DNA from: a virus
Direction: 5' to 3' (one strand)
DNA length: 30,371 bases
Virus record (IMG/VR): IMGVR_UViG_3300025168_000413
Span: 1-30,371 of that record
Shown: positions 1 through 23,556 of the stretch, piece by piece
Layout: every line of letters starts with the position of its first letter
Numbering within the stretch: position 1 is the stretch's first letter
Made by a program: the position numbers and the translations under genes
The notes under the pieces: generated by a model
The model's input: the letters and a program-made list of their open reading frames with translations, nothing else
The model's database searches: none
What the model was told of the DNA's origin: nothing

Positions 1-3000
1 TTGTAAAGTGCAAGCGGTGCCAAGTTGGTAAATTGACTACCGGCATCGGGCTCAATATCGAGTATGACTTCATTCAGTATGACTTCACACCCTCTTACAT
101 CGGCCATCATAGCCTCTGCAAGTATGAGAGCATAGCCTCCTCTTGTTGACATATTTCTTTCTATAGCAATGACAGTGTTTACCTGTTGTCCTGTCAGTTC
201 AGTGACTTTTGTTCCGCTTTCGCTCGGAGCCTTAACTGCGTCACTATGGTTCAAGTGAAAGCCCTGTAACTGTTGCTTGAATACATTCGGCTGGATGATA
301 ATTTGATACGCACCTACCTCTAATGGGTCGGGGAAGTGGTTGTTCAAAGTATAGGTGTTACCTGCCTCTAAGACAAGCGTATGTCCTCCTTGAGAGTTGA
401 TAATTCCGGCGTTCGACCCTGCGCTTGCGGCAATGCCGTAGCCTTCATACTTGACTTTGGTTTCAGTGAGTAAGGTAAACGCACCACCATGTATGTCACT
501 CGGACCAAAACCAGCGGTAGCAGTGGAGAACCAAACCAGCGGGTCTCTTGTAAATCCGGAACTTGCAAGTGTTGCGGTCGATGATGTGCGTGTGCCTTCA
601 AGCGTGCCAATGTAATTGTCACTGTCCGGTTTGTAATTAGAACTCTTACAAGCCGTGTTGAGGTCGTATAGACGCTGGTAAGCAGGGTGAGCGTAGTGTC
701 CCGGCATCAGTGCCATAGTAGGTGTGACATAATGATGTCCCATTCTTGGTATAGGCATAGGTGTCATCTTTGGCTTGTTGATTTGAGTAAACGCTGTAGA
801 TGGCTCAGCCATAGCACCTGTGTTTGCAGGTAAAGCCCCATACATAGTAAACCAATCAACTGATTTCATGTCCGGACTTGCACCACTGTATTCACTTTGG
901 TCCCTTAGTCTTCTTGCCGCAAAGAGTCTTGTCGAGCCTGCTGGCATGTAATAACTTGGCACTACTTTGAGTCCTGTCTTACCAGTAACGAATGATACAA
1001 AGTCCGGACTGAAAACAACACCTGTAAACTTATTCGTGCCTATACCTGTGTAAGAAGCAATGACACCTTTATCAGTAGCAGGGTCATAGACTCTTAGGAA
1101 ATAACGCCCTCCGCTTAATTCAGTTGAGTTAGTCCAAGTGGCAGTTTCGGGAGTAGAGCCGACCGTAATTTCAGTTCCGGAATAACTTGAATATGTCAAT
1201 TCATCTACATCATGTCGATGAGTCATACTGACTCCCATTCTCGTTACATGAAACATTATGCTACGGTCATGTGGTTCATACGACGACTGCAAAGGAGCGT
1301 TATCAGTATGGTCCTCCCAGCCTACATTACTTGATGCTGGGAACTTTAATCGAGCCGCACTCTTTGTTGTAGATACATCTACAGCGTCTTGGCTGAGATG
1401 TTCCCAGCCATTGTTTTCCCAAGTAGGGAACAGTCTCGGACCTGCGTATTCATAGTCAAACATTTTGCGTATTTGACTGATGTTTTGAGCAGGGTGCTGT
1501 AGACCACCCGAACCAAACGATTCATTTTGATAAGCCTGTATTCTGTCAAAGCCCGACCTTACAACAATGTTACCGGGTATCTCATCGGGATTCGGTAATC
1601 TAATTTTGAGATTCGGGTTGACACCTGCACCGGCAAGTGCTGGAGCAAGACCTTCAATCTCTCTGTCGCTTATGTGACGGAAGTCCATAATGACGGTTCC
1701 CAAAGGACTGCCTCCTTCAAGTCGATGCTCTTGACCTGTATCGTCCATAACGCTGACGCTTTCAAACTGAATGTGTTCATTAGGAATAAGCAAAGCATTG
1801 CGGACTTCTAATGGGTGTTGTTCAGCCAGTTGAGGATGACTCAATTCCTGCGCTTGTATGATAGGGAACATAGCGGCGTTTGTTGTTTCAAACGAGAAGC
1901 GAACATTACCGAGTATTTTCTCACCCACTAATTTGTAACTGCCACCGTCTTTCCTCTTCGTCCAAGGAATCATACCCAACCCTCTCGCATTTACAGCAGG
2001 CATAGTAAGACTACCTCCGTCCATTCGTTTCCAAACGACATGCTCCGGTAAGAAGTTGCGAGCGGCACTTCTCTTGTTGTAATAATCGTAAAGTCCGTTA
2101 TGAGGCTTAGCAGTAGCCCCTGCTCCTATGTTGAGATAATCATTGCGACTGGTTACACCTATACACTCAACAGCGTAAGTTCCAGCGTCTTCGTGAAACA
2201 TCGAACCCTTGACAACTGATTCATCCCAAAACAAATCACCAGTTGGGTAATTACAAGCATTCGCTCTTACCATATCACCGCTTTGTATAGTTCTATGAAG
2301 TTGAGCGTCGGATGCCGCCGCCCCTGTATTAGGGTAACTATCAGCATCGTATGGCTGTGTATAGCCAGTGTGAACCTGCGCTTCTACATGAGGGCCAGCA
2401 GTAGCAGGACCTACATATCGACTCTTGTTGTTGACTTTATTAGTGTCCCAAGCCATTGTTCCAGCGTGCGCTATGTTGTTTGATTGCGCTACATGTAACC
2501 AGTCACCTGCGCCCGAAATACCATTAGCGTCTGCTTTTGCTATAATTGGTAATTCACCTTCGTGGCTAACAGCGACAAGGTGTCTACTGAAAAGACCTGT
2601 TACGCAGTAATCACCATAGAATGCAACGGTAGGGTTCTCTACTCCACCTGTAGGAGCATTACCAACAGTGCATGTCTCTGCCGCTCCGTAAGGATTGAAA
2701 CCCAAGAAAGAGTGCCATGCGCCCAAACCAGCAGGATGCAAGTTCGCACCTATGTCGTTTGTCGCTTCGTATGAGTTGAGATAAGAATACGCTTCTCCAT
2801 GCCAACCTACTGCACCTACCGGTTTTGTTCTGTCAACAGCATCGGTAAAGCCACTAAAGTGAACCTGTGTCATGTGGTCTCTCGCCGCACCCGAAGCGGC
2901 GTTGTTGAATCTGTGAGTGCCTGCTTTTGCCCAAATGTAAGCCTTGTAGTTACTGTCGGGTGCAATCATCTGTCGATTCTGCGGGTTTATTACATCAGTA

Positions 3001-6000
3001 ACAGCGGTGACAGAGGATATGTTGAGAGTAGCGTTTCCACCTCCACCTTCTATAACTAAACCGGTATCTGTCGCCAAATATCCGGACCCTGCTTCAAATA
3101 TAGAAACGCCTGTGACTACTCCCGAACCATTCACTACAGCGTTTACAGTAAGTCCTAATCCCGAACCACCGTTTACAGGCACTTGTATAGTAGCACCCGC
3201 TGGATAACCAGTGCCACCTGCGGTAAGTGCTATGGCACTTGGAGTGCTTGCTATGTTACTTTTACCGAGAGTAAATGTAGTGTTTGAACCTGCTATACTT
3301 TGAGAAACATAAGGCGCAAAGCCAGCAATCGTGCCGTTACTGACTCTTAACCACCCGTAATCGGGGAGAGTTGTTGCGCTACTTGTAACTCGTATAGATG
3401 CAGGTGTTCCTCCATTTTGGACAGTGTATTGGTTTACTGCCAGTTCTACCCAGCCGTATCTGTCTTGCTTATGCGCATTTTGCATGCTCGGCATAAAAGT
3501 GCCACCAATAGCCTTGAGTGGGTCAGTGCCGGGGAATGTGTTGATAGCACCGCTAAGCACTGCGCCTAATTCTTCGCTGTTTTGACAACGAGTAGCGTCA
3601 ACCAATATGACATTAGCACTCATTTTTTGGTTGTCGACATCTCGCCCTCCAGTGGTATAGTAAGTGAGATAAGCCTGTGCAAGTAAGGCTCCGGGTCTAA
3701 ATGCACTGGCGTTATGCTTAGCACCGCTACCTGTAGAAAGAAACGCACTGGCCGCATGGTTCTTTGGGTTCTTACGAAGGTGGTCGTCGAGGAAATGACC
3801 TCCGGGGTGATAACCTCCGTCCATGTGCCATATGACTGACGATTTTCTTGTTGTAGGGTAAGATGACGATTCTATGGAGTTACCACTTATGTCAGTGAAT
3901 ATATGATTAAACGGATGATAATGCTTGGGTAAACCAACTACTGTTCCAGCAGTTCCTTCAAAGAAAAATGCCGATATGTAAGTTTGACTGTAACTTCTTG
4001 AAGACGATGGCTTAACCGAAGGGAAACCCTTTGTCGGTTGCCAATTCATTACATAGTTGAATCCTTCTGCGTTATTCTTTTGAAAGAATGTAGTCATAGG
4101 TAAATGTGCCAAAGCACTACCTCTGTTGAAACCACTGTGCTCTGTGAGGTCACCATTTGCGAGTTGGTTTGGTAAGAAAGAGTCCTTACTTGCGTCCCCA
4201 CCTATGTGAATAGGAACAGCACTGTAGCCGTTACCGGCAGTCACGATGTTGGCACCTTGAGGCTCTGTGGTTGCACTGCTATGAGGGAAAGCCTGTCCCG
4301 GTCCAAATATCATGTAAGTAGTATGGTGGTTGGTATTGCTGTCATGCGTATACCTTGCGTGAGGATGTGCAAACCTTATGATGAGAGGAGACGGTATATT
4401 GGCATGAACAGAATTAGTGCCATCAGTATAATCCAAACCTGTTACTTTGCTGTTCGCACCTTTTGCCATATCAAACGGCAGTATAGCGTCTTGGTTGAAG
4501 AACGGAGGATTATTTTGCCCTCGATGCTGGTCGAGGTAAGGAGTGCCGGGGAACATAGCCATCATAGCGTTTGTATCGAGTAGTGCATAAGAGCCAGCGA
4601 GTTCTCCTACATTTTGCAAACCAGCAGAGCCTGTTGGTCCTTTGGAGTAAGGGTGCGTGTAGAAGTCGGAATAATCATTTTGAGTTCCGTCATTGATGTC
4701 TGTAACGACACCGGAGAAACCGCCACCGAAGTAAAGAGGAACATAGTGGTCGGGGCTATTTTGTCCTCCTCGGAAATACAGGAAAGGATTGCCGTTCTTA
4801 CTACCTGCTATTCTTACCCCGTCTGTCTTGATAGCAGAGTAAGGGTCGCTCAGTCCCTTGATGAGTATGTCATGCTGTGCTGGACTCGCCCAATCAGCAG
4901 AAGCACCGTTGCTGACATAAACGACAGCGGTAGTGCTGGTTGAGCCCGGTTTACTTCTTACCATAGCATAATCAGCAGAGCCATGCCAAAGCAAGAAAGG
5001 CTCTCCCCAACTATTGGCGTTATCACATGCAAGTTTACCAAGCAAAGCCCAAGACTCGTTGGAGTCAAGTTGTATCTCGGTAGAAGTCACAGCGTGCACT
5101 GATACACACGGAGAGTCTATTCTTGGGATGATATGGTCTCCAGCGACATCGGTATAGTTTTCACCTCGTAGATTACGCCTCCATATAGTGGTATCAACTG
5201 CATTGTTTTGACTGTCAACAAGTATAGGTGTGGCAGTGTTTGCATTTGAACCTCTATACTTGGTGTTGATATGCAGTAGTGTATGAGGTATGTAGCCGAT
5301 GTCGAGCCTTACTCCAGCGTCTTGGTCGGCAGTTGTCAACCCTTGAAGGTGCGTGCCGCTGTCTACAGCCTCAGTCGAAACGCCTTCAAGCAGTCCCCAG
5401 TCTTTAGAGACATCTGCTTCAAACAACTTGTTCAGCGGAATGCTTGAATCGCTTCGGACTTTAATGCGAATTGCCGTAGGACTTACGCCCCATTCACCAA
5501 GTGTCTTGCCGTCCGGTGCATACATGTGCGTGCAATCGAAACTGGTCGCCTCTATGTTGTCTTGAGAAGCCCCCTCCATATTGATAGCGTGAGCAACTGC
5601 CGCCGCCATTACTTCGTCAGTCAAAAGACAAGTGAAGTTGATTCTTGGGCTCAGTATGTGACCTGTATCACCGTCTACTATTTCTGTAGTATTGGTGACT
5701 CCGTAAAAATAATGTTTGTTGGCCGCACCTGTGTCTCCGGCTTTACCGTATTCGGAACGACTGGTATAGAAGGTAGTCATACCTTGGTCGTCACTGCCAC
5801 TGTCGTCGCTTGTTTGTAGCATACCGGACTTAGGGAATCCGAGATAGCCGAGAATGTCGGGGTGTGAAAAAGAGCCACCGTTATGATAAGGGTCAGTGAG
5901 TATGACTTCTAAGGTCGTGCCGCTAAGCGTAGCAGTAACATGCACGCCTACATGTGGGCTTGGATAAGTATTCCATAGATTACCCTTGAAAGGCTGTAAA

Positions 6001-9000
6001 GTCCCTCCTGTTAATTCACCACATACTTCTCCGTTACCGACCATGTGTGAACCGATAGTGAAACCGCCTTGAGAGACATCTCTGTCATCGAAGTGAACGA
6101 TGACTTCTTCGTCAAGCGTAGATGGGAGGTAAGTGTTGTCTCCGGAAAACTTCTTTCCGAACTGTTTGTAAAGCAAACGAATGGTATGGTTATCTCCTCT
6201 ATGGTCGGTAAACCTTAGACCATACAGAGGACTGTTACCTATGTTGTCGACTTTCATGTCTTCTTTAGGTATGTAGCCACCGGCACTACCAACAGTGGTG
6301 ACAGTCATAGCGGCATCGGCATTACTGGCACTACCGTATCGAGTTACATTGACTGTGCCATCGTTGGTAAAGCCCCATCTACTAAGGTCGGGAGACCAGC
6401 CGGGTATACCTGCTTGTGTCATACCACCAAAGTTTATTCTTGCTTTGGCCTTCGTGCCTATTCTCAAACCGTCAACCAATACAGAAGCAGGGCTTTTTGT
6501 TTCAAAGGACTCGTTGAGAAGAGTGTTTGTTGTTCTACCGGAGACAATTTCAGTATTCGCTTCGGCCAATACACTCACGCTGTCTATGGTATCTACTCCA
6601 AAGTTGAGATTATTCGTAGCCTCATCATCGGTATTTTCCGGTGGTAAGTATTCTTTGAGTGTTGTAATAGGTGCAAACGGTCGACCAAAGCGATTGATAG
6701 GCATTGGAGCGGGGTGCATGTTTTCTCCGGTTACTTCATCCGGTTGGCACCAATAGTTTCGGAAACGACCACCGTGTCCGATAAGGAACTGAGGTCGATA
6801 AGGAGTTTGAGCCCTACTGCTGTCAAGCCAAGTGCAGAAGTTTCTACCACCTGCACCCGGAACAGTAGAGTGTATGACGACGGAGAAGCCTTGGTTCCCT
6901 TCGGAATCGAGAACTACTCTACCTAAGTGCGCCCTTACATAGCCCATGTGCGTTCCTCTGTCATGGCTTGAGAACGCTTTGGTCGTGTCCCAAAACGGAG
7001 CAGGGTCATGCGTAGAAGCAGTAGCGGCAAAGTCGGCTTTTTGATGAGGCGAAGAAGGGTCGAACTTTTGATTTTCACCAAGGAACTGGTCGTTTGGACG
7101 ACGAGCGTGAGTCTTTCCATTTTTAGCACCGGCTTGGTTAATCAACCGAATAACTTCTCTTGCCGCCGATTCGATGTTTGTTACTCCGTCTTTGAGAGAT
7201 ACCTCTCCTAAATCGACACTCAGTCTTCTTACAAAGTCCATTTCAGTCCAGTGGGTCAATTCTTTCAAACGAGTATCTGTCAATGTATGTGCAGTATTAC
7301 GAATACCTTTCATGGCTAAGAAAGCAGGTATGACTCTTGTTCCGTCCGGAGTATCAAAGAAAGTTGAACGCTCTCTTACTCCATCATCTATTTGGTCATG
7401 CTTAACAAGTGCATCTCCTACATTGACAACTGCGTTGTTTGTTCTGTCGGAATAACCGTTGGCAGAGGTTTTGTCGACCCCTCCTACATCGTGTGTAGAC
7501 AAGCCACCGGAGACACTTTCGTTCCATGCGCTGTTATGTGAATAGGACGCTTCGATAAAGTCCGACTTTGTATCGGATGCCATGCTTTTACTTTGAGAAG
7601 GGAAACCTGCCGCTACATCAATGAGCGAAGCACTGTCTTCAACATTATATTTCACTATACCACTTGTAACGACAGTAGGGTCTCCACCGATAGATGCGGC
7701 GGCTGGGCTGGATTGAACTTGCATGTGAATGTCTTGAAACGCTATGAACTCTCGGTCTTGAGATACATCGTAAAGTAACACTCTTGCGAAGCCTCCTGTG
7801 CATTGATAAGGGTCAATGTAAGCGACAACAGGAGGAGTTGTAGAAAGTCCAATTGCATCGTAATTCATTTCAATAGTTTTGTTAATATGCTGAACCAAGT
7901 TTTGAGCCGTCTCTATACAACTGTCACCAATCAAAAAGTTCTCCATTGGGATGCTGTCTCTTGGATTGGCGTTGAAACTACCAACTCCTCCTGTAAAGCC
8001 TTTCCAAACTTCGGCTTCGTTAAGTGTGCCTCTGCTCTTGCAGAACAAACCTTCTATGGCATGAGGATTGGTGTAATGCATATTCATCCAAACAGTATCA
8101 CCTTGTCTTAGTCCACCTACGCAGTAAGGATGTGCCCAAGCCCTATTGAGGAATGCTTCTTTCACCTTGGGATGAACAACAGTAGTCGTAGCATACAAAT
8201 CCTCGACATATACTTCGTCACCAACTGACGGAGCAAAGCCGTTATCGGGGGTTTGGATTGTCAAAGTATTGTTCGTTCTACCGTCATAGAATCCTCTGTA
8301 AACAGTTCCGCTGGCATTTCTCCAAGCAACACGGAACTTGTAATCAGCATCATGACTGTCTTTAGGGAACAAAGAAGCATCGTCAAGAACAATAGGGAGT
8401 CCTATGACAAGTTGAGCATCTGTTCCTCCTGCGCCGTTTACTGTAACCACATCACCTATTTCATAAGCAGTTCCTGCTGTATGTATAGTAGCCGCTGTAA
8501 CAGCGTTACCGCTGACTGTGACATTGACTTTCAAACCGGAACCTTCACCACTTGCAGTGGCTATGTTCGTATGAGAGCCGTTTGTATAACCACTGCCTCC
8601 GGAAACTATGGTAACATTACTGGGTATGCCTGCGTTTACTGTTATTTTCGCTCTTGGTCGCTTTGACTGAATCTTTGGTAAATGAGGGTTAATACTTGGA
8701 CCGTCTCTCAGTTCAATTGCACTGACATACTGTCGTAGTCCATAATCGACATTACCGCCTTGAGTCATGACATTTGAACGGTCATAATAGAAAGAGCGGC
8801 GATTTTCATAACCAGCACTGATGAGACTTGGGTTGTCAGCAATACCTGTGTAATTCATGTCTTGGTAGCCCGGAGCAGGTAGAATGAATGCGCCTACTTT
8901 GATGTCTCGGAAAAAGTGCTCACTTGCGATGTGGTCGTCTCCATGAGCACCTATGACAGTGAGATAATTATCTGTAGGTGAAGCACCGGTATTCCTTGCT

Positions 9001-12000
9001 GAATAAATGACCCATTCTCCGTTTGCTAAGAAAGCCCTACGGTATCTCGCACTACCACTAAGACCTGCAACATCTACAGGTGGTGCAGAAGGTATAGGGA
9101 ACAGGCTTGCGTTTTCGACATAGATGCGATGCACTGAGGTGTCGTATGGTTGAGTAACTCTTGTCCCACTACGGTGAGTATCTGCTTGTATAGCATATGA
9201 AAACGGTCCAAAGATTTCGGGGTCTTTAGGTGCAACTGAATCTACTCTTCTACCAACAGGACTTGGTGCCCAAGAATGAGCGGTATGTGTAGCGTCTATG
9301 TGTATTTTCATACTGTTGTCCGGACCGGGGAAAATACCCTTCTCCGGCTTGTCAAAGAAGAACTCTTCAAACAAAGGAATCTCAACGAGTGCTCTCGTGC
9401 TGGCATACTGTGTGCCAAGTTGATAGTCGTGTTGGACAGTATCAAGTGTTTGAAACAATCTGTCGTTGATGGTCGTTCCATCGTTACACATTGTTTCTTC
9501 GCTGAACTTATCATCAACATGTAGAACGCTACCCGCTTCTATACCTGTAGCGGTAATCCAAGCCGCAAGCGAATCAGCCTCCGAGCCATCGGCCAAAACG
9601 AAGTCACCTGTGCCTGTTCGCCCCGTCGAGGATGTGAATGTGAAAGTAGTGCCTGTTTTACTGGTGTATAGCGCAGAAGCAAACCTCGGAGGCTCGCCGT
9701 TATTTGATGGCACTTCAAGATAAATGTAGCCAACTTTAGGGAAACAATATGTTCCCCAAGACTGTAAGTCAGTTGTTCGATTGTTAAGCGGCTTAACGAC
9801 AACAGTGCTACTGGTCGTGCTACTTACATTTGCTTGACAATCACGACGAGTGTTCCAAGCAAGCCTTGCAAGTGGACTTGGGTCATAGGTCTCCTTTGTA
9901 TTTACAGCACCTTGTCCGACACCTCCAAGTGTCATAGTAACTACAGGTGCTCCGGGCATTATCTCCTTGACAATGTGAGAGTCGGGTGCGGCTGAGCCCT
10001 TTACATACACGCTTGAAGAAGCCAAGTCACTGGTAATACCGTGTGCGTGAATAATACTTTGACCGTCATTACCGTCACTGAAAGAAAGAACTCTTGCACG
10101 AGATACAAGGCTTTCTATTGATATTCGATTTGCTTTCTCTGTAGACGAGATAACTTTACTCAACATGTTGAATCTGTTTCTGTCACTCGGTTGAATGACA
10201 AGTTGCATGGTGTTTTCGTTTGAGTTATGCTCTATGATGTCAAAGTATTCATTGACGCATGTGCTTTGGTTTGTTGTTCCTCTACCCACTATCTGTGGTT
10301 GATTGAACAGTTCTTCATTGTCGACTAAAGCAGAAGTAGTTCCGGGCGCACTCGCTATAGTTATACTTGTAGAAGTCACTGCGGTTATCGTTCCTATGTT
10401 TTTACCGTTGGCTTTGTAAACATCATTACCGACTTCAAATTGCTCAGTAGCATTAACTCCGTCAACCGTCATCGCACCAGTGGTGCTCGCTGAATAGCCG
10501 GAGCCATTGTTGACAAAAACACCTGTTCTTGGACGACTGCCATTACTTGCAGGTTGAAACCTTACATCTGCTACTTCTTGCATAGTCGAACTGCTTGTAA
10601 CATTCTTTTGAATTACAACTCTATGAAACACCGAACCCCTTGAAGACAGTTCGGAGGCGGCTAATCCAATGGCCTGTGGCGTAGTGCTCGGAGGGTCGCT
10701 TGATGTGAGAGGTAAGTAATTTTGAGGACATAAATCGTAATCGAGAACCTTCTCTCCAACCAATCCTTCGGAGTTATCACCTTCTAAATCTCCATCGGAA
10801 AACAAGGACATTTCGGGTTTATCGAAAGTTATAACCCCACCCGCTGAATAAAGTTCAAGTTCACTTGCCGACATAGCGTCACGCATAAGGTCGAGTATAG
10901 AATAATCCACACCGGCAGGACTTGCGATTATAGTGCTTACATCGGGGAGGGTTTTTGTCACCAGCAATTTAGGATGTAAGTCCAACACAGTGACAATGGC
11001 CCCTGTAGTAGCGGCGTTTACAAAAGCGGTGACAGGAGCAGTTGTAAATGTCAGTGTCTTAGCACTGTAGTTAATTTTGGCAGTTACAGTAGCAGTGGTT
11101 GTAGCCACAGTCGTTCCTATCCTAATGTTACTGGCAGGTATAACTTGACCGTCATATCCAAACGATTTGATACTTTGAAGTGTCAATACCTTGTTGCTCC
11201 CACTAATGGCACCAGTAAGTCTTGAAGTCGCACCTGTAGTGAACTCCGAGCCTTCGTAGTCCACAGCATTGTAATGGACTTGGACAAACGGAGCGTAATT
11301 GTAAGTCGCAAGGTCGGGCAAAAACAACGAGGCTATTCTGCTTTCGTTTGAAGGTATAGCGTGCCTTACATTACCTGTGGCCTCATGTGAAGGAACTGAC
11401 TTGAGAAGGAAAGGATTCGGGTTAAAGTTGGGCCCACCTATTGCGAGCATGCCTCTCTTTGCATCGGAAATGTCCGACATTCCATTTTCAACGATATTGC
11501 TGACAAAGCCACGAGATTCAGTAGATTGTATCTTTACCGGTCCGTGAGTATCATAACTTGAAATCACGCTGTTAATTGGGACAGTTGAGCGAATGTCGGA
11601 AAAGGTTGCAGGGAAAGAAGCAGTTACAATGTCACTACTCATATCCAACTTTTTCTCTACATGGTGCTCACTGGTCGGTGGTAAAGCACCCATGTAATGA
11701 TGACTCCTTACATGATTGAGAGTGTGACGACCACAGTGACCTGCGAGCAATTCATTACCCATGTTCGTAGTGCTGGCAGAGAACTTGTTGAACTCATGAC
11801 TGTCTATAGCCATGCTTTGAGAAAATACAACTCCGTGATTTTCAAAGTCACTTTCGTCAATGCAGACCTGTCCTTGTCTTTGAGAGAACTGTGTCCCACT
11901 ACCGTATGGTTGAAACGAATTACCTTTACCGGTATCAACGATACAGTCTCCTGTAATGACAACAAAACGACCTGCATCGTGAGCCATTAGCGCACCCCTT

Positions 12001-13103
12001 CGACCGTTTGAAGCGTTTGCCTCAAAGTCCAAGTGGATTGACTCTACTACCATCGTCCCTGCACTTGCATCAATGGACATAAGACGCATTCTTTCGGGTG
12101 CTTTGTTTGTAGGTTTACCAGTCGTTTGGCTGTAACCAAGTGGATTGATGAGTATGTTGTAGGGAACTTTGGGTATAGATACTGTAGAAGTTGACGAAAC
12201 TGCATAGACTTTGACTGAGTATGCCCCTCCGCTGTAAGGACTGGCTGTGAAATCAACACTGGTTAATCCGCTCTGTCCGCTTAGTTCGTCGACCAAAGCC
12301 TGTGCCGCAGTCGCTCCTATGTTGACAGTAGACGACGCTCCAGTAGATGCGCTGATAGAAGGAGTTACTGTGATTAAATCAATGGGTTCTATTGGCTCTT
12401 CAAATCGCCAAAGTGCCAATGTATTGTCACTTTTGACAGGAGCGTATTGCTGATAGCCCGATGAAAGAGCACCTCTCGACCAATGAACAGCCTCAAGTGT
12501 TCCTCTAAAGTCACCGCCTCTACCACCCAAGTAAATGTTGTTTTGTTGATTAACAAGTTCATGAGGTTCATCAAGTGTTTGAGAAACGACCAATTCTCCA
12601 TTGACAAGCAAACTGATAATTCTACCGTCGAACATAACTGTTACATTGAGTAGTTCACGGTGTCCCGAATTGAAAGCAGAGACATCATCCATCTCTTCAT
12701 CGGTTGCCAAATATCCGTCTTGAGTCGGGCTAAAGGTAGGATATGATATACCTTCATAATAAGCAAGTCTACCGTTGACTTTCATTACAGGCTTGGCTGT
12801 CGAAAGAGTATAGACTGCATCTCTACCGCTGGCAGGGTTTTTCAGCCTTACTTCAAATGTAGCGGGAGCGGGACTGCTGGGACTACCTACGGTTAATCGC
12901 ATGACATTCTCTTGTTCAAATATCACTCCTCCGCAATCGGGAATGAACCAAGTCTCCAAAGTAAAGTTACTAAGAGCAGAAGGTAGCCCTCTTCTTTCTT
13001 CTTCGTTGATACCATGGACACTTTTTAGATTAACAGGGACGAGAACGCTGTCGCTAATCCCGTTGAACTGTAATCCAAATCCGGGGTCAATCAGCAAACT
13101 CAT
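1..13103 (-). CDS. Giant virion protein, probable tail fibre/adhesin (3' end beyond window)
   Basis: A single open frame starts at ATG 13103 and runs without a stop to the left edge: at least 4,367 residues, with the C-terminus outside the window. The frame at the start and at the edge agree, and no competing frame is long. Residues about 25-240 look like a LamG/concanavalin A-like jelly roll (LETWF near the start, INNEL-type strand VNGELVVS, closing LALWRFEE). Two glycine-rich beta modules containing GGSGY or GGTGY lie near residues 1485-1568 and 3279-3364, and a small beta module shared with other virion proteins lies near 886-927. No signal peptide, membrane segment or coiled coil was noticed. 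It starts 1 nt after the stop of the preceding tail gene, with an AGGTG ribosome site inside that gene's end. Position and domains suggest a distal tail fibre or host-binding protein; most of its length is unrecognised. Being the last gene in a tail operon supports this, but the role is inferred. Confidence 0.85.
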   Translation of the reverse strand, partial: MSLLIDPGFGLQFNGISDSVLVPVNLKSVHGINEEERRGLPSALSNFTLETWFIPDCGGVIFEQENVMRLTVGSPSSPAPATFEVRLKNPASGRDAVYTLSTAKPVMKVNGRLAYYEGISYPTFSPTQDGYLATDEEMDDVSAFNSGHRELLNVTVMFDGRIISLLVNGELVVSQTLDEPHELVNQQNNIYLGGRGGDFRGTLEAVHWSRGALSSGYQQYAPVKSDNTLALWRFEEPIEPIDLITVTPSISASTGASSTVNIGATAAQALVDELSGQSGLTSVDFTASPYSGGAYSVKVYAVSSTSTVSIPKVPYNILINPLGYSQTTGKPTNKAPERMRLMSIDASAGTMVVESIHLDFEANASNGRRGALMAHDAGRFVVITGDCIVDTGKGNSFQPYGSGTQFSQRQGQVCIDESDFENHGVVFSQSMAIDSHEFNKFSASTTNMGNELLAGHCGRHTLNHVRSHHYMGALPPTSEHHVEKKLDMSSDIVTASFPATFSDIRSTVPINSVISSYDTHGPVKIQSTESRGFVSNIVENGMSDISDAKRGMLAIGGPNFNPNPFLLKSVPSHEATGNVRHAIPSNESRIASLFLPDLATYNYAPFVQVHYNAVDYEGSEFTTGATSRLTGAISGSNKVLTLQSIKSFGYDGQVIPASNIRIGTTVATTTATVTAKINYSAKTLTFTTAPVTAFVNAATTGAIVTVLDLHPKLLVTKTLPDVSTIIASPAGVDYSILDLMRDAMSASELELYSAGGVITFDKPEMSLFSDGDLEGDNSEGLVGEKVLDYDLCPQNYLPLTSSDPPSTTPQAIGLAASELSSRGSVFHRVVIQKNVTSSSTMQEVADVRFQPASNGSRPRTGVFVNNGSGYSASTTGAMTVDGVNATEQFEVGNDVYKANGKNIGTITAVTSTSITIASAPGTTSALVDNEELFNQPQIVGRGTTNQSTCVNEYFDIIEHNSNENTMQLVIQPSDRNRFNMLSKVISSTEKANRISIESLVSRARVLSFSDGNDGQSIIHAHGITSDLASSSVYVKGSAAPDSHIVKEIMPGAPVVTMTLGGVGQGAVNTKETYDPSPLARLAWNTRRDCQANVSSTTSSTVVVKPLNNRTTDLQSWGTYCFPKVGYIYLEVPSNNGEPPRFASALYTSKTGTTFTFTSSTGRTGTGDFVLADGSEADSLAAWITATGIEAGSVLHVDDKFSEETMCNDGTTINDRLFQTLDTVQHDYQLGTQYASTRALVEIPLFEEFFFDKPEKGIFPGPDNSMKIHIDATHTAHSWAPSPVGRRVDSVAPKDPEIFGPFSYAIQADTHRSGTRVTQPYDTSVHRIYVENASLFPIPSAPPVDVAGLSGSARYRRAFLANGEWVIYSARNTGASPTDNYLTVIGAHGDDHIASEHFFRDIKVGAFILPAPGYQDMNYTGIADNPSLISAGYENRRSFYYDRSNVMTQGGNVDYGLRQYVSAIELRDGPSINPHLPKIQSKRPRAKITVNAGIPSNVTIVSGGSGYTNGSHTNIATASGEGSGLKVNVTVSGNAVTAATIHTAGTAYEIGDVVTVNGAGGTDAQLVIGLPIVLDDASLFPKDSHDADYKFRVAWRNASGTVYRGFYDGRTNNTLTIQTPDNGFAPSVGDEVYVEDLYATTTVVHPKVKEAFLNRAWAHPYCVGGLRQGDTVWMNMHYTNPHAIEGLFCKSRGTLNEAEVWKGFTGGVGSFNANPRDSIPMENFLIGDSCIETAQNLVQHINKTIEMNYDAIGLSTTPPVVAYIDPYQCTGGFARVLLYDVSQDREFIAFQDIHMQVQSSPAAASIGGDPTVVTSGIVKYNVEDSASLIDVAAGFPSQSKSMASDTKSDFIEASYSHNSAWNESVSGGLSTHDVGGVDKTSANGYSDRTNNAVVNVGDALVKHDQIDDGVRERSTFFDTPDGTRVIPAFLAMKGIRNTAHTLTDTRLKELTHWTEMDFVRRLSVDLGEVSLKDGVTNIESAAREVIRLINQAGAKNGKTHARRPNDQFLGENQKFDPSSPHQKADFAATASTHDPAPFWDTTKAFSSHDRGTHMGYVRAHLGRVVLDSEGNQGFSVVIHSTVPGAGGRNFCTWLDSSRAQTPYRPQFLIGHGGRFRNYWCQPDEVTGENMHPAPMPINRFGRPFAPITTLKEYLPPENTDDEATNNLNFGVDTIDSVSVLAEANTEIVSGRTTNTLLNESFETKSPASVLVDGLRIGTKAKARINFGGMTQAGIPGWSPDLSRWGFTNDGTVNVTRYGSASNADAAMTVTTVGSAGGYIPKEDMKVDNIGNSPLYGLRFTDHRGDNHTIRLLYKQFGKKFSGDNTYLPSTLDEEVIVHFDDRDVSQGGFTIGSHMVGNGEVCGELTGGTLQPFKGNLWNTYPSPHVGVHVTATLSGTTLEVILTDPYHNGGSFSHPDILGYLGFPKSGMLQTSDDSGSDDQGMTTFYTSRSEYGKAGDTGAANKHYFYGVTNTTEIVDGDTGHILSPRINFTCLLTDEVMAAAVAHAINMEGASQDNIEATSFDCTHMYAPDGKTLGEWGVSPTAIRIKVRSDSSIPLNKLFEADVSKDWGLLEGVSTEAVDSGTHLQGLTTADQDAGVRLDIGYIPHTLLHINTKYRGSNANTATPILVDSQNNAVDTTIWRRNLRGENYTDVAGDHIIPRIDSPCVSVHAVTSTEIQLDSNESWALLGKLACDNANSWGEPFLLWHGSADYAMVRSKPGSTSTTAVVYVSNGASADWASPAQHDILIKGLSDPYSAIKTDGVRIAGSKNGNPFLYFRGGQNSPDHYVPLYFGGGFSGVVTDINDGTQNDYSDFYTHPYSKGPTGSAGLQNVGELAGSYALLDTNAMMAMFPGTPYLDQHRGQNNPPFFNQDAILPFDMAKGANSKVTGLDYTDGTNSVHANIPSPLIIRFAHPHARYTHDSNTNHHTTYMIFGPGQAFPHSSATTEPQGANIVTAGNGYSAVPIHIGGDASKDSFLPNQLANGDLTEHSGFNRGSALAHLPMTTFFQKNNAEGFNYVMNWQPTKGFPSVKPSSSRSYSQTYISAFFFEGTAGTVVGLPKHYHPFNHIFTDISGNSIESSSYPTTRKSSVIWHMDGGYHPGGHFLDDHLRKNPKNHAASAFLSTGSGAKHNASAFRPGALLAQAYLTYYTTGGRDVDNQKMSANVILVDATRCQNSEELGAVLSGAINTFPGTDPLKAIGGTFMPSMQNAHKQDRYGWVELAVNQYTVQNGGTPASIRVTSSATTLPDYGWLRVSNGTIAGFAPYVSQSIAGSNTTFTLGKSNIASTPSAIALTAGGTGYPAGATIQVPVNGGSGLGLTVNAVVNGSGVVTGVSIFEAGSGYLATDTGLVIEGGGGNATLNISSVTAVTDVINPQNRQMIAPDSNYKAYIWAKAGTHRFNNAASGAARDHMTQVHFSGFTDAVDRTKPVGAVGWHGEAYSYLNSYEATNDIGANLHPAGLGAWHSFLGFNPYGAAETCTVGNAPTGGVENPTVAFYGDYCVTGLFSRHLVAVSHEGELPIIAKADANGISGAGDWLHVAQSNNIAHAGTMAWDTNKVNNKSRYVGPATAGPHVEAQVHTGYTQPYDADSYPNTGAAASDAQLHRTIQSGDMVRANACNYPTGDLFWDESVVKGSMFHEDAGTYAVECIGVTSRNDYLNIGAGATAKPHNGLYDYYNKRSAARNFLPEHVVWKRMDGGSLTMPAVNARGLGMIPWTKRKDGGSYKLVGEKILGNVRFSFETTNAAMFPIIQAQELSHPQLAEQHPLEVRNALLIPNEHIQFESVSVMDDTGQEHRLEGGSPLGTVIMDFRHISDREIEGLAPALAGAGVNPNLKIRLPNPDEIPGNIVVRSGFDRIQAYQNESFGSGGLQHPAQNISQIRKMFDYEYAGPRLFPTWENNGWEHLSQDAVDVSTTKSAARLKFPASSNVGWEDHTDNAPLQSSYEPHDRSIMFHVTRMGVSMTHRHDVDELTYSSYSGTEITVGSTPETATWTNSTELSGGRYFLRVYDPATDKGVIASYTGIGTNKFTGVVFSPDFVSFVTGKTGLKVVPSYYMPAGSTRLFAARRLRDQSEYSGASPDMKSVDWFTMYGALPANTGAMAEPSTAFTQINKPKMTPMPIPRMGHHYVTPTMALMPGHYAHPAYQRLYDLNTACKSSNYKPDSDNYIGTLEGTRTSSTATLASSGFTRDPLVWFSTATAGFGPSDIHGGAFTLLTETKVKYEGYGIAASAGSNAGIINSQGGHTLVLEAGNTYTLNNHFPDPLEVGAYQIIIQPNVFKQQLQGFHLNHSDAVKAPSESGTKVTELTGQQVNTVIAIERNMSTRGGYALILAEAMMADVRGCEVILNEVILDIEPDAGSQFTNLAPLALY

Positions 13104-13104
13104 A

Positions 13105-15096
13105 TCAAACACCTATAACAAAGTCGGTTGCCACGAGTAGCATCGTGAACGCGTAGTAGTTGTTCCCAGCATCATATCGCACATGAAGTTTCTCCGGCAT
13201 TATCCTAATTCCGCCGTCATTACCGTGAGCCTGTGTTCCGGGGATAGTAACAAACATATCCTCAATCACATCAGCAAAGAATCCAACGACAGATTGAATC
13301 TCGTCAAACGGCGAGGCACTCAGTATTTTTTCAAAAAAACTATTCGCACCGTCATCGTCTGCATTACCTCCTTCGTCACCAGTAAGAAGGAATTGATTCA
13401 TTAACTGAGAGGCGGCTCTTGTGTTTTCATCGGATGTCTTTTGAGATTGCGGTAAACTACCGAAGGTCAAAAAGAAGTTGCGTGCTGTGCCCGTTACTCC
13501 GGAACTGGTGACAAGGCTATCATAGGGTATCTGTATACCTCGGAACATATCAATACTTTTTTCCGAATTGGAGACAAGGCCGATTAAGTCTTGAACCTTG
13601 TCACCGGCAGACCTTGCTGAGTTCACATTGCGTGAACTTGACAGTTGAAATATCTGTGGATTCAAGAGTTCGGAGAAAGCATTTGTTACCATTGTTGGAT
13701 GTTCGATTACATCATCGACATGATACACTTGCTCTATGACAACTATAGGGCCGTTCACTACGGCAATAAACGCTGTAGCGAGTGTCTTACCTGTCTCGCT
13801 TATATTTTTAGTGCTAACATTAGAGGAGAGTCCAAACGCTTCAGTGAATATCTCAGCAAGCGTAGCCGCAGGAGATTTACTATCTGTAGTCATAAGACCT
13901 TTGATAGGTATATTGACAATCGCATCGTAATTAGAAGCGTCTTGGTTTTTCCCATTTGCCCCACTTACATGGTTAAGCACTGCACGAGTCAGTGTAACTT
14001 GGTCCGAGCCACCAAGTAATGAGTGAGTTTTACTGGCATCAAATTGAAACCTTATACCAATAGGTGCTTGTCCGATTCCGGTAATCCCTAAAAGAGAATC
14101 TCTATAGCAATTTGAGCCTTTAGGGTTACGAGATGGGTCTTCTAACCAATAAGACGGAACAATTTTGATAAAGTTACCGTCTAACAAAGACTCTGTATTG
14201 TTGTTGGCTCTGTTTATGGTGAGTGTGTCGCCTTCTATTATTTGCGCTTGAGTCACTGCTTCAAGTTGTATATTGAATATGTCTTGCGTGCTACTGTCCG
14301 AAATAGAAGTGACATAACCTAATAATTCATTTCTTCTGTTAAAGCATTTAGGAAATACAAATAATTCATCATTTGCTGTTATGGAGGTGGGTAAAGCACT
14401 TGAAAAAGTTACACTGGTGTCTGTTAAGGCACTGATGTCACCTAAAAGTGTTCCAGCCGAATTGACTACTCTGTCACCGATATTCAGCCGAGCCAACGCT
14501 CCCAAATCCGGATTACTACTTATTGAACCGCTCAGCGTTGTATCTAAAGTAAGCGCACCTGTTACTCCTGCTGAGTGACCGCCTGTAAACTTCAAATCAA
14601 TGTCCATTTTAGTCGAAAGTGTGTTACTGCCACTCCAAACTAAATAATTAGGCCCTTTGACTGTCAACAGGCTTGTGGAGCCTAAAACGACACCATTAGT
14701 TGGGTTAAAAACGGGAAAGAGCGTTTCTCTGTTTTGAGTGGTGATATAAGAAGACCTTTGTAACATTATTCCGTCACAGAATGGAGCCGGTGTAAAGTTG
14801 CTAAATGGTCGGGTGGGCAACATGTTTCCGAAGTTGATGAGAGTTTTCATAGGGCTTGATGATAGAGAACTATTGGCACTGTGCTGTGTATCGACTCCGG
14901 CATCATCGGTAATAATCCCGTTCATCTCCAAAGTCACTCTTGGCGTGTTTGTATCTATAGCAAAACGCTTGAGAACATTACCGGGTGTTGGGAACGCTGA
15001 AATGTTACGGTTTACCTCCATCTCTATATTTTGAACAATCAAATCCGTTTGGATTTCACTTTGCGCTCCTGCGAGTAACCGAACCGGAATTGCCAT
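13105..15096 (-). CDS. Distal tail/baseplate-region protein, paralogue B (663 aa)
   Basis: The function is not recognised by name, but the protein is clearly a paralogue of the gene just upstream (15106-17664). The first 67 residues match in pattern (PVRL, then KRFAIDTN, then NGIITDDAG against PIRL, KRMGIDLN, QGALTDDTG). The last third matches too (GDKVQDLIG, RGIQIPYDSLVT, RNFFLTFGSLP), as does the hydrophobic end (YYAFTMLLVATDF). The centre differs: it has no LamG domain, and carries at residues 203-249 a small beta module (IGDRVVNSAGTLLGDISALT) also seen in the 192-residue head-region protein and the giant protein. The start is ATG with a strong GAGGTGA site overlapping the upstream stop codon. 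Placed between the tape-measure slot and the giant adhesin, it is probably a tail-tip or baseplate component that is co-assembled with its paralogue; this is inferred from position. Confidence 0.8.
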   Translation of the reverse strand: MAIPVRLLAGAQSEIQTDLIVQNIEMEVNRNISAFPTPGNVLKRFAIDTNTPRVTLEMNGIITDDAGVDTQHSANSSLSSSPMKTLINFGNMLPTRPFSNFTPAPFCDGIMLQRSSYITTQNRETLFPVFNPTNGVVLGSTSLLTVKGPNYLVWSGSNTLSTKMDIDLKFTGGHSAGVTGALTLDTTLSGSISSNPDLGALARLNIGDRVVNSAGTLLGDISALTDTSVTFSSALPTSITANDELFVFPKCFNRRNELLGYVTSISDSSTQDIFNIQLEAVTQAQIIEGDTLTINRANNNTESLLDGNFIKIVPSYWLEDPSRNPKGSNCYRDSLLGITGIGQAPIGIRFQFDASKTHSLLGGSDQVTLTRAVLNHVSGANGKNQDASNYDAIVNIPIKGLMTTDSKSPAATLAEIFTEAFGLSSNVSTKNISETGKTLATAFIAVVNGPIVVIEQVYHVDDVIEHPTMVTNAFSELLNPQIFQLSSSRNVNSARSAGDKVQDLIGLVSNSEKSIDMFRGIQIPYDSLVTSSGVTGTARNFFLTFGSLPQSQKTSDENTRAASQLMNQFLLTGDEGGNADDDGANSFFEKILSASPFDEIQSVVGFFADVIEDMFVTIPGTQAHGNDGGIRIMPEKLHVRYDAGNNYYAFTMLLVATDFVIGV

Positions 15097-15108
15097 ATTT
15101 TCACCTCA
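15096..15108 (-). promoter_or_regulatory. Stop codon overlapping ribosome site (paralogue A to B)
   Basis: The stop TGA of the LamG paralogue is the first part of TGAGGTGA, which is the ribosome site for ATG 15096. It suggests translational coupling, with ribosomes that stop here helping start the next gene. Confidence 0.7.
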
Positions 15109-17664
15109 TAGTATAATATCAGCGGCCATGAACCTAAGACTGAACTCATAGGCTTTATGCTCCGCTTCTCGGCTTATCACCATATCAGCAACAAGTCCAC
15201 TTATGCCGTTTTTCAAATGCCCTTCATGCGCATGAGAAAACAACCTTGAAGCGTGCTCTGTGTTGATACTTGATAATTTATCAGCAGTCAAGCCCTCAGT
15301 TGTCAAAAAGAAGTTACGCTGTGCTATGTGTGAATCCAAAGAGTTCTTACCTTTAGTGACATGAGTCAAGTAAGGTATCTGTATGCCTCGGATATAATCG
15401 CCAGTTGAGTCCTGTGGATTGATTTGATTTGCAACTAAGCCAGTTCCTGCCTTGATGAAATCACTTACGATACCTACATTTGGATTAGAAGCATAATTGT
15501 TACTGTTTGCGAGTATACCCAGTAAATCCTGCGCTTTGTCTCCGCCACTCTTTATAGGGCGACCACTGTTACTACCGGCAGTTCCACTCTTACCTCCGGA
15601 GAATCCTTGAGTAACGGGCATTTGTCCAACACCCAATGTGGTGTTGATAGTATCGGATGACTGTCCGAGAGAAGACGCAAACTGCTGTGTTATTGTCAGT
15701 CGACAGTTATGAGTATGATATGACTCACTGATAGCAGTAGAGAAAACCTTGTCCATGGTCTTATTACCGGACGCATCTACCTCTCTACCCACATCCATGT
15801 AAGAAGCAGTGATGGCCTTTGACATGAGATAAGTCAAGTATTCGTCAGTTCTTGTCAACCCTCCTCCTGTGTCACGAGCAGAGCCGTCTTCGTATGTCGG
15901 GAAACTTGGACCTACCGCCGCTTCGGGTGCGGCGAACTCGTTGAAAGTGTCAGCGTTTTGAATAGGAATTACAATCACAGGACTACCGGGCCTACCTCGC
16001 AAGTTTGTATCTGCATAATTAACAGGAGCGATGTATATTTCATCATCGTCTGCCGGACTACCCGGTGTATCATACTGAACTACTATGTTATTAGCATTCG
16101 CTGAGAGCACAGAGGCAAAAAGTAAATCCGTCCCTGCTGTATTGGTAACATAAGGACCGCTTCGCTTAAACACTATTTTTTGATACCTACTGTTCTCAGT
16201 AGGCTCAAACCATTCATGAGGATTACCGCCGGTAACTGTAATTGTATTACCGGAAACACCGTTGTTATCAACTTTCATACCTGTATTTCTTTCTACATTT
16301 AAAAAGCCAAAAGGTTCTTGCTTACTTGCAACCATCAAATCATCGAATGTAACTCTTACATGCTTCGATTGATGAGCAAAACTACCCACCCCAGCATACT
16401 CGTGAGTATAATAAAGACCTATTCCGTATTTAACAGAAAGGTAACCTTCGACTTGCTCTCTGTCATCATCACTCAATACAGAGTTGTAAATGAGAATCTC
16501 GGCTATTTGTCCGTCGAAAAAGTCACCGGACATCTCGCCTATTTTTAAGTTGGCCGAGCCATTAGGAACATAGTCTACGCTGGAGGTGTCTTGAGCCTCT
16601 TGCCTACCGTTGACAAAGAGAGTAACAGTGTCGGATTGCGAATCAGCGTCTGTGTCATCCATGACATAAGTCATTATTTGGGCTCCGGTATTGACGACAG
16701 AATTAGCCGCCGAAGTGATGCCATCGTCACCACCACCCCCTCGCCAAAAAGCAGTAGAGTATTTGACCCTCATATCCATAAAGAGAGCAAATCCTTTACC
16801 GCTTTCTATAGAACTGACTACAGTGTGGTCTCCGGCTGTAGCGTTACTCTTCGCAACACAGAAAACAGTGAACTCTTCGGAATTGAAAAATGCTGAGAAG
16901 GGAACCTCCATATCGTCATTTACACCGTCGAACTTCAAAGCGGCTGGTCCTATCCCTGCACTGGTAAATGTAGGTTGTTCGCTTGAAGTAGACTGAACAG
17001 CGTTCCTACCGTTACCACTACTGTCAGTCCAAGTGGCTACACCGCCGCCTTCTTCTATACCAGTTATCGAGTCAGCCTTAAGCCAAAGTTGTAAACCTGT
17101 CTTTACAGGATTGTCCAGCGATTGACTCGCTTCTGTCCAATATGCTACTGGTAAATCAATGTATTTTTTAGCCCAGTATTGAAGTATTCTATTGCCGAGG
17201 TCACTTGGCTCTAAAGGACTACCTCCGCTGGAGCCGCCTAAGCCTCCGGAAAAGCCACCTGTATTACCTACAGTCCCTGCTATACCAGTAGTAACACCTT
17301 GAACGGTATTACCAGCAGGCCCTGCCATGTTGAAGGATGATGCAACAGGACCAGCGTTGTTACCGCCACCTCCGCCATTAACGGGTTGACCCCAACTTAC
17401 AATCATTTGAGGTTGGTAAAAATCAAGAGTAGCAACAGCCTTTGAACTTGCAGTTTGACCTGTGTCGTCTGTAAGTGCACCTTGTATTTCAATCATAACA
17501 CTTGCTTGATTAAGGTCTATACCCATACGCTTAGCGTCGAAGAAAGGTATAGCGAAGTTACTCTGTATGCGCTCAACTACAATGTCAACACTTGTAGCAT
17601 CAAGGGAGATAGTTTCACCGTTCTCTTGAACGAGGCGAATCGGCATCATCTCCCCTGCGTCCAT
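15106..17664 (-). CDS. Distal tail/baseplate-region protein with LamG-like domain, paralogue A (about 852 aa)
   Basis: The N-terminal domain (about residues 8-72 from the longest start) and the C-terminal region (GDKAQDLLGILANS, RGIQIPYLTHVT, RNFFLTTEGLT) are shared with the next gene, marking a tandem duplication. Between them lie a glycine-rich linker at about 97-152 and a LamG/concanavalin A-like domain at about 189-420 (LQLWLKAD, TWTDSSGNGRNA, LKFDGVNDDMEV, VTLFVNGR, FFDGQIAEILIYN, VEGYLSVKYG). Such domains bind carbohydrate or protein in many phage tail proteins. ATG 17664 is chosen; a GTG at 17670 is also possible and would overlap the previous stop by 4 nt (GTGA). An AGGAG site upstream could serve either start. 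Probably a tail-tip or baseplate protein with a receptor-binding insertion. Confidence 0.8.
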   Translation of the reverse strand: MDAGEMMPIRLVQENGETISLDATSVDIVVERIQSNFAIPFFDAKRMGIDLNQASVMIEIQGALTDDTGQTASSKAVATLDFYQPQMIVSWGQPVNGGGGGNNAGPVASSFNMAGPAGNTVQGVTTGIAGTVGNTGGFSGGLGGSSGGSPLEPSDLGNRILQYWAKKYIDLPVAYWTEASQSLDNPVKTGLQLWLKADSITGIEEGGGVATWTDSSGNGRNAVQSTSSEQPTFTSAGIGPAALKFDGVNDDMEVPFSAFFNSEEFTVFCVAKSNATAGDHTVVSSIESGKGFALFMDMRVKYSTAFWRGGGGDDGITSAANSVVNTGAQIMTYVMDDTDADSQSDTVTLFVNGRQEAQDTSSVDYVPNGSANLKIGEMSGDFFDGQIAEILIYNSVLSDDDREQVEGYLSVKYGIGLYYTHEYAGVGSFAHQSKHVRVTFDDLMVASKQEPFGFLNVERNTGMKVDNNGVSGNTITVTGGNPHEWFEPTENSRYQKIVFKRSGPYVTNTAGTDLLFASVLSANANNIVVQYDTPGSPADDDEIYIAPVNYADTNLRGRPGSPVIVIPIQNADTFNEFAAPEAAVGPSFPTYEDGSARDTGGGLTRTDEYLTYLMSKAITASYMDVGREVDASGNKTMDKVFSTAISESYHTHNCRLTITQQFASSLGQSSDTINTTLGVGQMPVTQGFSGGKSGTAGSNSGRPIKSGGDKAQDLLGILANSNNYASNPNVGIVSDFIKAGTGLVANQINPQDSTGDYIRGIQIPYLTHVTKGKNSLDSHIAQRNFFLTTEGLTADKLSSINTEHASRLFSHAHEGHLKNGISGLVADMVISREAEHKAYEFSLRFMAADIIL

Positions 17665-17666
17665 AA

Positions 17667-18086
17667 TCACCCGCTCCTGTTAAATCCGCTCTGCGTGAGT
17701 GAGCCGCCCATTTTACTTCTCAATTCTTTTGTCACCATAGTGCTGATTTCTTTAGCGAGTTTTTGCTTGTCGCTTTTATCAGTCACCCCGCTGACATCTA
17801 TTCTTAAGTTGACAGTGACATTACTTTGCGAGCCTCCGCCTGCTCCGCCTGTCATCTGTGCTTGAGACACAGGCTCGCCCATCATCTGTTGAAATGGTTG
17901 AGACTTCTCCATGTTTTTGAGAGAAGCCGTTAAGTCTGTGCTGTTCACCTTCGTCATCTCCATTGACTTGCTGAACTTATCCATTTGCTGTTGCAAGGCT
18001 TTCATGTTTTCACCTGCTTCTTTGCTGTATTTTTTGAACTTCTCCATCGCTTCTACTGAGCGTGGGTCAATATCGCCGTCAATCAT
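17667..18086 (-). CDS. Short coiled-coil protein, candidate miniature tape measure or its C-terminal piece (139 aa)
   Basis: Residues 1-65 are strongly helical and charged with M, K, Q and E (AMEKFKKYSKEAGENMKALQ), followed by a Gly/Ser-rich hinge. Residues about 89-128 read NVTVNLRIDVSGVTDKSDKQ and continue with a helix; to my knowledge this resembles the last segment of long tape-measure proteins, where a short beta strand is followed by a helix. It lies exactly where a tape measure is expected, after the chaperone-like genes and before the distal tail genes, yet is far shorter than usual (commonly over 500 residues). It could be a true miniature tape measure for a very short tail, a remnant, or a separate tail chaperone. 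Start ATG 18086 has a GGAGGAG site that overlaps the end of the previous gene. Confidence 0.7.
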   Translation of the reverse strand: MIDGDIDPRSVEAMEKFKKYSKEAGENMKALQQQMDKFSKSMEMTKVNSTDLTASLKNMEKSQPFQQMMGEPVSQAQMTGGAGGGSQSNVTVNLRIDVSGVTDKSDKQKLAKEISTMVTKELRSKMGGSLTQSGFNRSG

Positions 18087-18088
18087 GA

Positions 18089-18247
18089 TTACTCCTCCAT
18101 TGGGGGCACTCGGTCATAGCCTAAGTAAACTGCGTCTTTTGGCATGTCTTCTTCGCCTTGCATAGCCTGTGCCCAGTAAAGAAGTTGCTTAGCATCGTTT
18201 ACTGACAAATCTCTCACATCCTTGATATTCATGTTGTAGTGTGTCAT
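18089..18247 (-). CDS. Small tail-assembly-region protein (52 aa)
   Basis: The open frame is short but bounded well. Its ATG overlaps the stop of the 121-residue gene in a TAATG junction, and its stop is 2 nt before the next ATG. The protein begins MTHYNMNIKDVRDLSVNDAK and ends RVPPMEE. It is predicted to be mostly helical, with no cysteine and no membrane segment. An in-frame ATG at 18262 would give 57 residues but lies inside the preceding gene. Size and position match the second half of a tail-assembly chaperone, which many siphoviruses make by frameshifting; here it is a separate overlapping gene. No specific family is recognised. Confidence 0.65.
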   Translation of the reverse strand: MTHYNMNIKDVRDLSVNDAKQLLYWAQAMQGEEDMPKDAVYLGYDRVPPMEE

Positions 18248-18612
18248 TAGAAGGTATTCCATCCCTTCTTGTTGGTAGCGAAGTCGCTGATTAACAGGCC
18301 GTCCGTGGATGAACTGTTTGATGTTCCCGACTTCGCCTCCCGAAAAACCAACCAGTCCATGATTTGAGTTGGCTGTGGTAAAAGAGATGCAAGTTGCTGA
18401 CCTTCTTCGGGATTGAGGTCTTCTATGTCTATAGAAGGCTCATAGTGAAGCCAGTTGCTAAATGCGTAACGCCAGTAGTTGGAGAAGTTCATATCGCCAT
18501 TTGCGAACAACGGTGCTATTGCTTGCACATCAAAAAATGTCAACCGTTTTGATGTGACTTGGACAGGTTTACCGTTTATGTTAATTTCATTCTTCTTCTG
18601 TTTCTCCGACAT
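18247..18612 (-). CDS. Tail assembly chaperone-like protein (121 aa)
   Basis: The protein opens with a basic segment and a short beta hairpin (INGKPVQVTSKRLTFFDVQA), followed by helices with conserved-looking aromatics (NYWRYAFSNWL) and a helix DLNPEEGQQLASLLPQ. This small, helical form sits between the tail-tube and tape-measure slots, which is the classical location of the gpG/gpGT-type tail chaperones that bind the tape measure during assembly. It overlaps the preceding 74-residue gene by 26 nt in a different frame and the next by 1 nt. No strong ribosome site precedes its ATG (only GTGAG), suggesting coupling to the upstream gene. Assignment rests on position and size, not on a firm sequence match. 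Confidence 0.6.
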   Translation of the reverse strand: MSEKQKKNEININGKPVQVTSKRLTFFDVQAIAPLFANGDMNFSNYWRYAFSNWLHYEPSIDIEDLNPEEGQQLASLLPQPTQIMDWLVFREAKSGTSNSSSTDGLLISDFATNKKGWNTF

Positions 18613-23542: not shown

Positions 23543-23556
23543 GGTGAATCACCTCA
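23542..23556 (-). promoter_or_regulatory. Stop codon overlapping ribosome site (192-aa to 72-aa gene)
   Basis: TGAGGTGA combines the stop of the upstream gene with the ribosome site for a TTG start 14 nt later. It fixes TTG as the start of the 72-residue gene. Confidence 0.7.

Follow-up and report, generated by a model that had tools for sequence, protein, structure and literature searches.

A single gene fills 43% of the window analysed here (13,103 of 30,371 bases; the window is an entire IMG/VR record, a linear fragment) and encodes the greater part of a giant protein of a magrovirus (order Magrovirales), presumably one of Poseidoniales. We consider it probable that this protein is an adhesion scaffold of the tail tip or baseplate carrying exchangeable host-recognition domains, because gene order, a LamG domain, tail-type modules and swapped inserts all point that way; the protein would then reside in the virion at the tail tip, bind the host through its inserts and function uncleaved. 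The features on which this reading rests are listed in Table 1.

Table 1. Features of the giant gene, its cassettes and its operon (window positions unless a relative is named)
Feature	Position	Strand	Basis or occurrence
Giant tail gene, 5' part (4,367 codons; whole gene estimated at 5,370-5,700)	1..13103	-	3' end outside record
LamG/concanavalin-like domain, residues ~6-236	12396..13088	-	Weak PF13385 match, AlphaFold2 model, VIA
Inserted GSGY beta module, residues 1498-1570	8394..8612	-	Among 29 complete relatives only in L055
Second inserted GSGY-type beta module, residues 3282-3362	3018..3260	-	5 of 29 complete relatives
Small beta module, residues ~3965-4054	942..1211	-	Only confidently folded piece of 3368-4367 model
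Two modules in relatives	~L003 4000 and 4237		L056, L063
Propeller-like insert, 280-300 residues	~L003 4500-4775
Second LamG	~L003 5303		L021, L055; same PHROG as upstream 854-aa protein
VDG module close to C-terminus			L074
663-aa tail protein directly upstream of giant gene	13105..15096	-	C-half paralogous to 854-aa protein, hhalign 99.7%
854-aa LamG-containing virion structural protein	15106..17670	-	phrog_10356, PF13385
139-aa helical protein at tape-measure position	17667..18086	-	Synteny with HVTV-1 gp131; tape-measure-like C-terminus by eye
Putative tail assembly chaperone	18247..18612	-	hhalign 54% to HVTV-1 gp129
Putative major tail protein	18822..20909	-	C-part like HVTV-1 gp128, hhalign 94.4%
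Neck/tail-terminator position	20906..21379	-	Like HVTV-1 gp127, hhalign 93.6%; phrog_19972
Connector-like protein	21376..22983	-	C-part like HVTV-1 gp125, hhalign 95.5%; phrog_17057
HK97-fold major capsid protein	25059..26186	-	32-34% identical to Druskaviridae
Prohead protease (Peptidase_S78)	26215..27597	-

An intact giant frame under purifying selection

On the minus strand one frame runs without a stop from an ATG at 13103 to base 3, at the contig edge, giving 4,367 codons and a visible product of 468.9 kDa. The first-pass annotation had described a single frame of at least 4,367 codons left unfinished at the edge, covering over 43 percent of the window and encoding more than 460 kDa, and each of these figures holds. 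We confirm that the open frame is real: the five remaining frames across the same stretch carry 115-336 stops each, and the chance of 4,367 stop-free codons at the base composition of the window is approximately 1e-104. A single base lies between the ATG and the preceding stop (TGA-T-ATG), and this ATG is a more likely start than an in-frame GTG at 13112. The 3' end cannot be read here since the window is the entire record, and the gene is truncated simply because the record ends.

Searches of IMG/VR returned 57 relatives with the N-terminal 997 residues as query, 135 with residues 3368-4367 and 372 with an alignment of the C-terminal stretch; 84,980 prokaryote genomes (GTDB) yielded neither a relative of the gene nor a provirus copy. 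Complete relatives have frames of 5,173-5,684 codons where the loci were read, and open frames of up to 6,332 codons in records searched whole; the full protein in relatives is about 5,200-5,700 amino acids long, or about 560-600 kDa. The complete copies of our first set all share the C-terminus ...LHPKG...HS(G/T)(E/D) (e.g. ...TGDHSGE-stop), and we therefore estimate that the window copy is short of about 1,005-1,331 codons. Of 29 related records, 28 carry the giant gene, and 23 of these have it as one open frame of 5,073-6,332 codons, the shorter frames in some copies being due to contig ends or to breaks (G002, G018). In the sole record without it (G026) the capsid gene lies about 10 kb from a contig end, and the giant-gene region may therefore be missing.

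Identity to the window copy is 56-79% among the 29 complete relatives, all of which are collinear with it from end to end, and nine segments of 8-14 residues do not vary. Distant copies (L225, L228, L127 and L077) cover the same span at roughly 31-62% identity in matched segments. Compared with relative L002, whose C-terminal part shows 91% identity, the window copy has a dN of 0.095 and a dS of 0.87 over 3,889 codons, with dN/dS of about 0.11 overall and 0.07-0.19 per 400-codon block; the gene is under strong purifying selection.

The virus, its probable host and the tail operon

The window virus is a magrovirus and probably stands near group A (Apasviridae). Poseidoniales, the likely hosts, are abundant uncultured ocean archaea. 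The major capsid protein aligns with those of HVTV-1 and HCTV (Druskaviridae) at 32-34% identity over 91% (hhalign 100%) and is more distant from those of the remaining archaeal viruses. By profile comparison the gene order of the window is also that of HVTV-1 (protease, capsid, gp125, gp127, gp128, gp129), such that the head-neck-tail arrangement is common to both up to the tail chaperone. The window fragment itself carries no PolB; among 12 related records tested PolB was found in 11, these being all 11 of at least 79 kb, a PF00118 chaperonin was found in 11 of the 12, and related records of 80-111 kb have both genes. In G001 they lie on the plus strand and the giant gene on the minus strand, placing the replication and morphogenesis modules on opposite strands. 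The one viral thermosome tested found its best genome matches nearly all in Poseidoniales (39-42% identity), which is supportive only, the scan patterns having been derived from the query. In its MCP, PolB, thermosome, opposite-strand modules and 80-111-kb relatives this virus resembles described magroviruses (PMC10768690, PMC12999244), and the thermosome-type chaperonin of the relatives fits clade 1 of Nishimura et al. (PMC5332604). Within Magrovirales, Apasviridae correspond to group A and Aoguangviridae to group B (PMC12999244, PMC10768690, PMC5332604), and no described magrovirus family has a cultured member (PMC10768690).

A tail role for the giant gene is favoured by synteny with HVTV-1, by translational packing, by the LamG-containing virion protein encoded upstream and by the tail-fibre family member downstream. 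The 139-aa protein at the tape-measure position gave no statistical match and is kept across relatives; the HVTV-1 tape measure has 480 aa, and if the 139-aa protein fills that role, a tail of about 20 nm is predicted. A giant gene is lacking at this place in HVTV-1, whose genes beyond the tape measure encode 151-524 aa (gp137 with weak LamG-like similarity), and hhalign of the genes around the giant gene against gp131-gp138 gave no significant match. The giant gene had been placed last in the tail operon, a position that the relatives refute, since at least three further genes follow on the same strand and our record merely ends. These are a gene of about 550 aa, for which gene order permits the guess of a baseplate hub, a second of about 118 aa and a third of 397-871 aa, the long form of which has a match to a tail-fibre PHROG. 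Beyond this tail-fibre-like gene lies a convergent chaperonin gene, and the virus-encoded thermosome may help to fold the giant protein.

Several further observations concern this region. The adjoining genes for the 854-aa and 663-aa proteins have paralogous C-halves, with LamG inserted in one of them. In some relatives, small genes of varying kind separate the giant gene from the next tail gene (L007 16000-16961, L004 16984-17397, L013 after 16102) and have a common MTPMEEAW..LK-type leader; the L004 product weakly resembles PARP/ADP-ribosyltransferase (E 0.037). Small cysteine-motif (zinc-ribbon-like) proteins are encoded in or beside the structural operon (window 23028-23312, minus strand; L003 20085-20339), and the thermosome-type chaperonin gene at L003 20794-22293 (minus strand) is convergent to the tail module with the giant gene.

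A conserved core with exchanged cassettes

The LamG-like start proposed by the first-pass annotation is borne out by structure modelling. The Pfam match of the N-terminus to PF13385 is weak (below the cut-off), and the AlphaFold2 model of residues 1-680 (pLDDT 80, pTM 0.77, 54 sequences) is mostly beta. In VIA the N-terminal domain matches the LG domain of PAPP-A with a Z of 16.6 over 193 residues (rmsd 3.0), neurexin LNS and pentraxins also being on the list, and residues ~6-236 are well modelled as a LamG/LNS/pentraxin-type jelly roll. Toxin receptor-binding domains returned by Foldseek for this model were not taken as clues to function, having the LamG-type jelly roll in common at low TM and poor rmsd. 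The whole 1-680 model matches a viral protein in BFVD (34% identity, TM 0.80), so a relative is already present in UniProt.

Nearly all of the remaining sequence is unrecognised, as had been remarked, and most of the core of about 5,000 residues falls outside Pfam and PHROG families: across the whole visible protein these searches returned only the sub-threshold LamG and two PHROG matches, both to the GSGY module. Against 50,697 phage records tblastn gave no match for residues 1-680 or the N-terminal 1,370 residues, and the other 3,000 residues matched via the GSGY module only. Profile searches of solved structures with residues 1-680 and 3368-4367 yielded nothing meaningful. The model of residues 3368-4367 failed (pLDDT 36), so that the absence of fold matches there is uninformative; its usable portion is a beta module of about 90 residues, with weak likeness (Z ~6) to modules of the lambda tail tip and other phage tails. 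By profile self-comparison, internal repeats are limited to a module of about 60 residues (L003 ~1303, 1461, 4287) and the propeller's own repeats.

Set into this core are cassettes, which we define as blocks of alignment columns present in a minority of the 29 complete copies. The 'few beta modules' noticed earlier are indeed there, namely the two GSGY modules and the module at 3965-4054. The GSGY modules match tail-fibre and baseplate-wedge PHROGs, some of the matching PHROGs being labelled 'head and packaging', and the one at 1498-1570 has tblastn matches in cyanophage. At the propeller site 62 of 84 comparable copies are empty, with a linker of 39-66 residues, and 22 are filled, 10 of them with 121-211 residues and 12 with 330-377. 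Nine of these 12 longest inserts are of one propeller type, one is of another and two are an unrelated repeat, the propeller label itself resting on a weak, sub-threshold Pfam match (E 2.4e-5) and an equally tentative likeness to WD repeats.

Exchange at this site is seen directly on comparing copies. L003 and L004 share 91.7% identity across the core and about 25% across the propeller (local alignment), the drop being confined to residues 4500-4800, whereas for L004 and L052 the figures are 57.6% (core) and 81% (propeller); in L036 and L043 (core 96.7% identical) the insert is present in L036 alone. The most natural reading of this pattern is that a domain within a conserved protein has been replaced horizontally. 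A VDG/NNGSGY beta module of about 75 aa also occurs in structural genes (window 23554-24132 and 13105-15096; L003 16888-18540) and in giant-gene inserts of L025, L059, L063 and L074, recurring across structural genes and giant-gene sites as if mobile between genes.

Proposed role, rival readings and significance

In the mechanism that we favour, one tail-tip or baseplate protein of about 560-600 kDa would serve a non-contractile-tailed magrovirus of Poseidoniales archaea, its long, non-repetitive and collinear core forming the scaffold at the tail end. On it would be displayed the N-terminal LamG lectin-type domain and, at fixed sites, small beta domains together with the other inserts (GSGY and VDG modules, beta-propeller, second LamG), which presumably bind host surface glycans or proteins. 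Gain, loss and exchange of inserts among viruses would then change binding to the host envelope with the scaffold preserved; the exchange of domains on a conserved chain is observed, and recognition by those domains is our inference. Counted against this scaffold are the lack of family matches for most of the core and the failed model of residues 3368-4367. The first-pass annotation had suggested host attachment or penetration, and attachment is the likely role given the module swapping, whereas penetration finds no support in a protein that has no transmembrane-like stretch by hydropathy and no enzyme family match in Pfam or PHROG. More tentatively, and with considerable doubt, one may picture a single largely non-repetitive chain of about 600 kDa, with undescribed folds, from which the tail-tip organelle of a short-tailed archaeal virus is mostly built. 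It would act as a breadboard whose several internal sockets accept exchangeable recognition cassettes, and the virus thermosome, encoded beside the tail module, would assist its folding.

The main rival, which we think unlikely, is a virion polyprotein translated whole and then cut, for instance by the S78 protease of the virus, into several tail or surface proteins. The great length of the mostly non-repetitive chain, a protease gene within the operon and several variable junctions would suit it, but prohead proteases usually act in head maturation, no cleavage-like motif was noticed on informal inspection, and, insert sites aside, the conserved core is not punctuated by regularly spaced, poorly conserved linkers. 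It is quite improbable that the protein instead decorates the capsid or neck, or forms a whisker there: carbohydrate-binding type folds and adhesion modules do occur in proteins that decorate phage heads, in keeping with the 'head and packaging' labels among the GSGY matches, yet the giant gene sits between the putative tape measure and the tail-fibre-like gene and is 12 kb away from that for the capsid protein.

Lower still we place a non-virion or ejected protein active inside the host, a reading that draws on the virion location being itself deduced and that is opposed by operon position, LamG and tail-type modules. That the giant protein replaces or supplements the tape measure is suggested by the shortness of the 139-aa candidate, but we give it very little weight, as the modelled residues 1-680 are beta-rich with LamG instead of forming a long helical chain, and the protein accommodates insertions of 70-370 residues with nothing else altered. 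An assembly or sequencing artefact is already refuted. Errors do occur, since the copy in L226, the only clear frame break among relatives examined, is split by a 22-nt tandem duplication (L226 10440-10640; probably an assembly error), but the same intact frame recurs in dozens of independent contigs under purifying selection.

Proteins of this kind are already known, in that giant virion proteins bearing the same GSGY beta module exist in marine T4-like and other phages (PHROGs 701, 2885, 5342 and 18802, labelled virion structural, baseplate wedge or tail fibre) and module exchange is familiar from adhesins. With profiles of 3,007-6,136 positions these PHROGs also temper the claim that such a size is rare in tailed viruses, although it is uncommon. 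The magrovirus core, however, matches none of the four profiles except through the small module, is not repetitive-looking and belongs to an archaeal virus. Phage tail fibres and adhesins carry exchangeable host-recognition modules, as at T-even fibre tips, and share with the giant protein a conserved scaffold on which recognition domains are swapped between viruses; in contrast to fibres, the cassettes here lie at several internal sites of a chain of about 5,000 residues and not at a fibre end. Magrovirus papers name a 'tail fibre protein' or 'minor tail proteins' and list Laminin_G_3 as an auxiliary gene (PMC10160649). The giant gene is not mentioned in the magrovirus literature examined, which is a partial coverage that leaves room for earlier notice, and the family appears to be undescribed.

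The giant gene takes up about 16-17 kb of a genome of roughly 100 kb. Its more than 350 related sequences may provide material for solving possibly new folds, and its swap sites point to candidate host-specific domains, so that cloned inserts could be tried as binding probes for the uncultured Poseidoniales.
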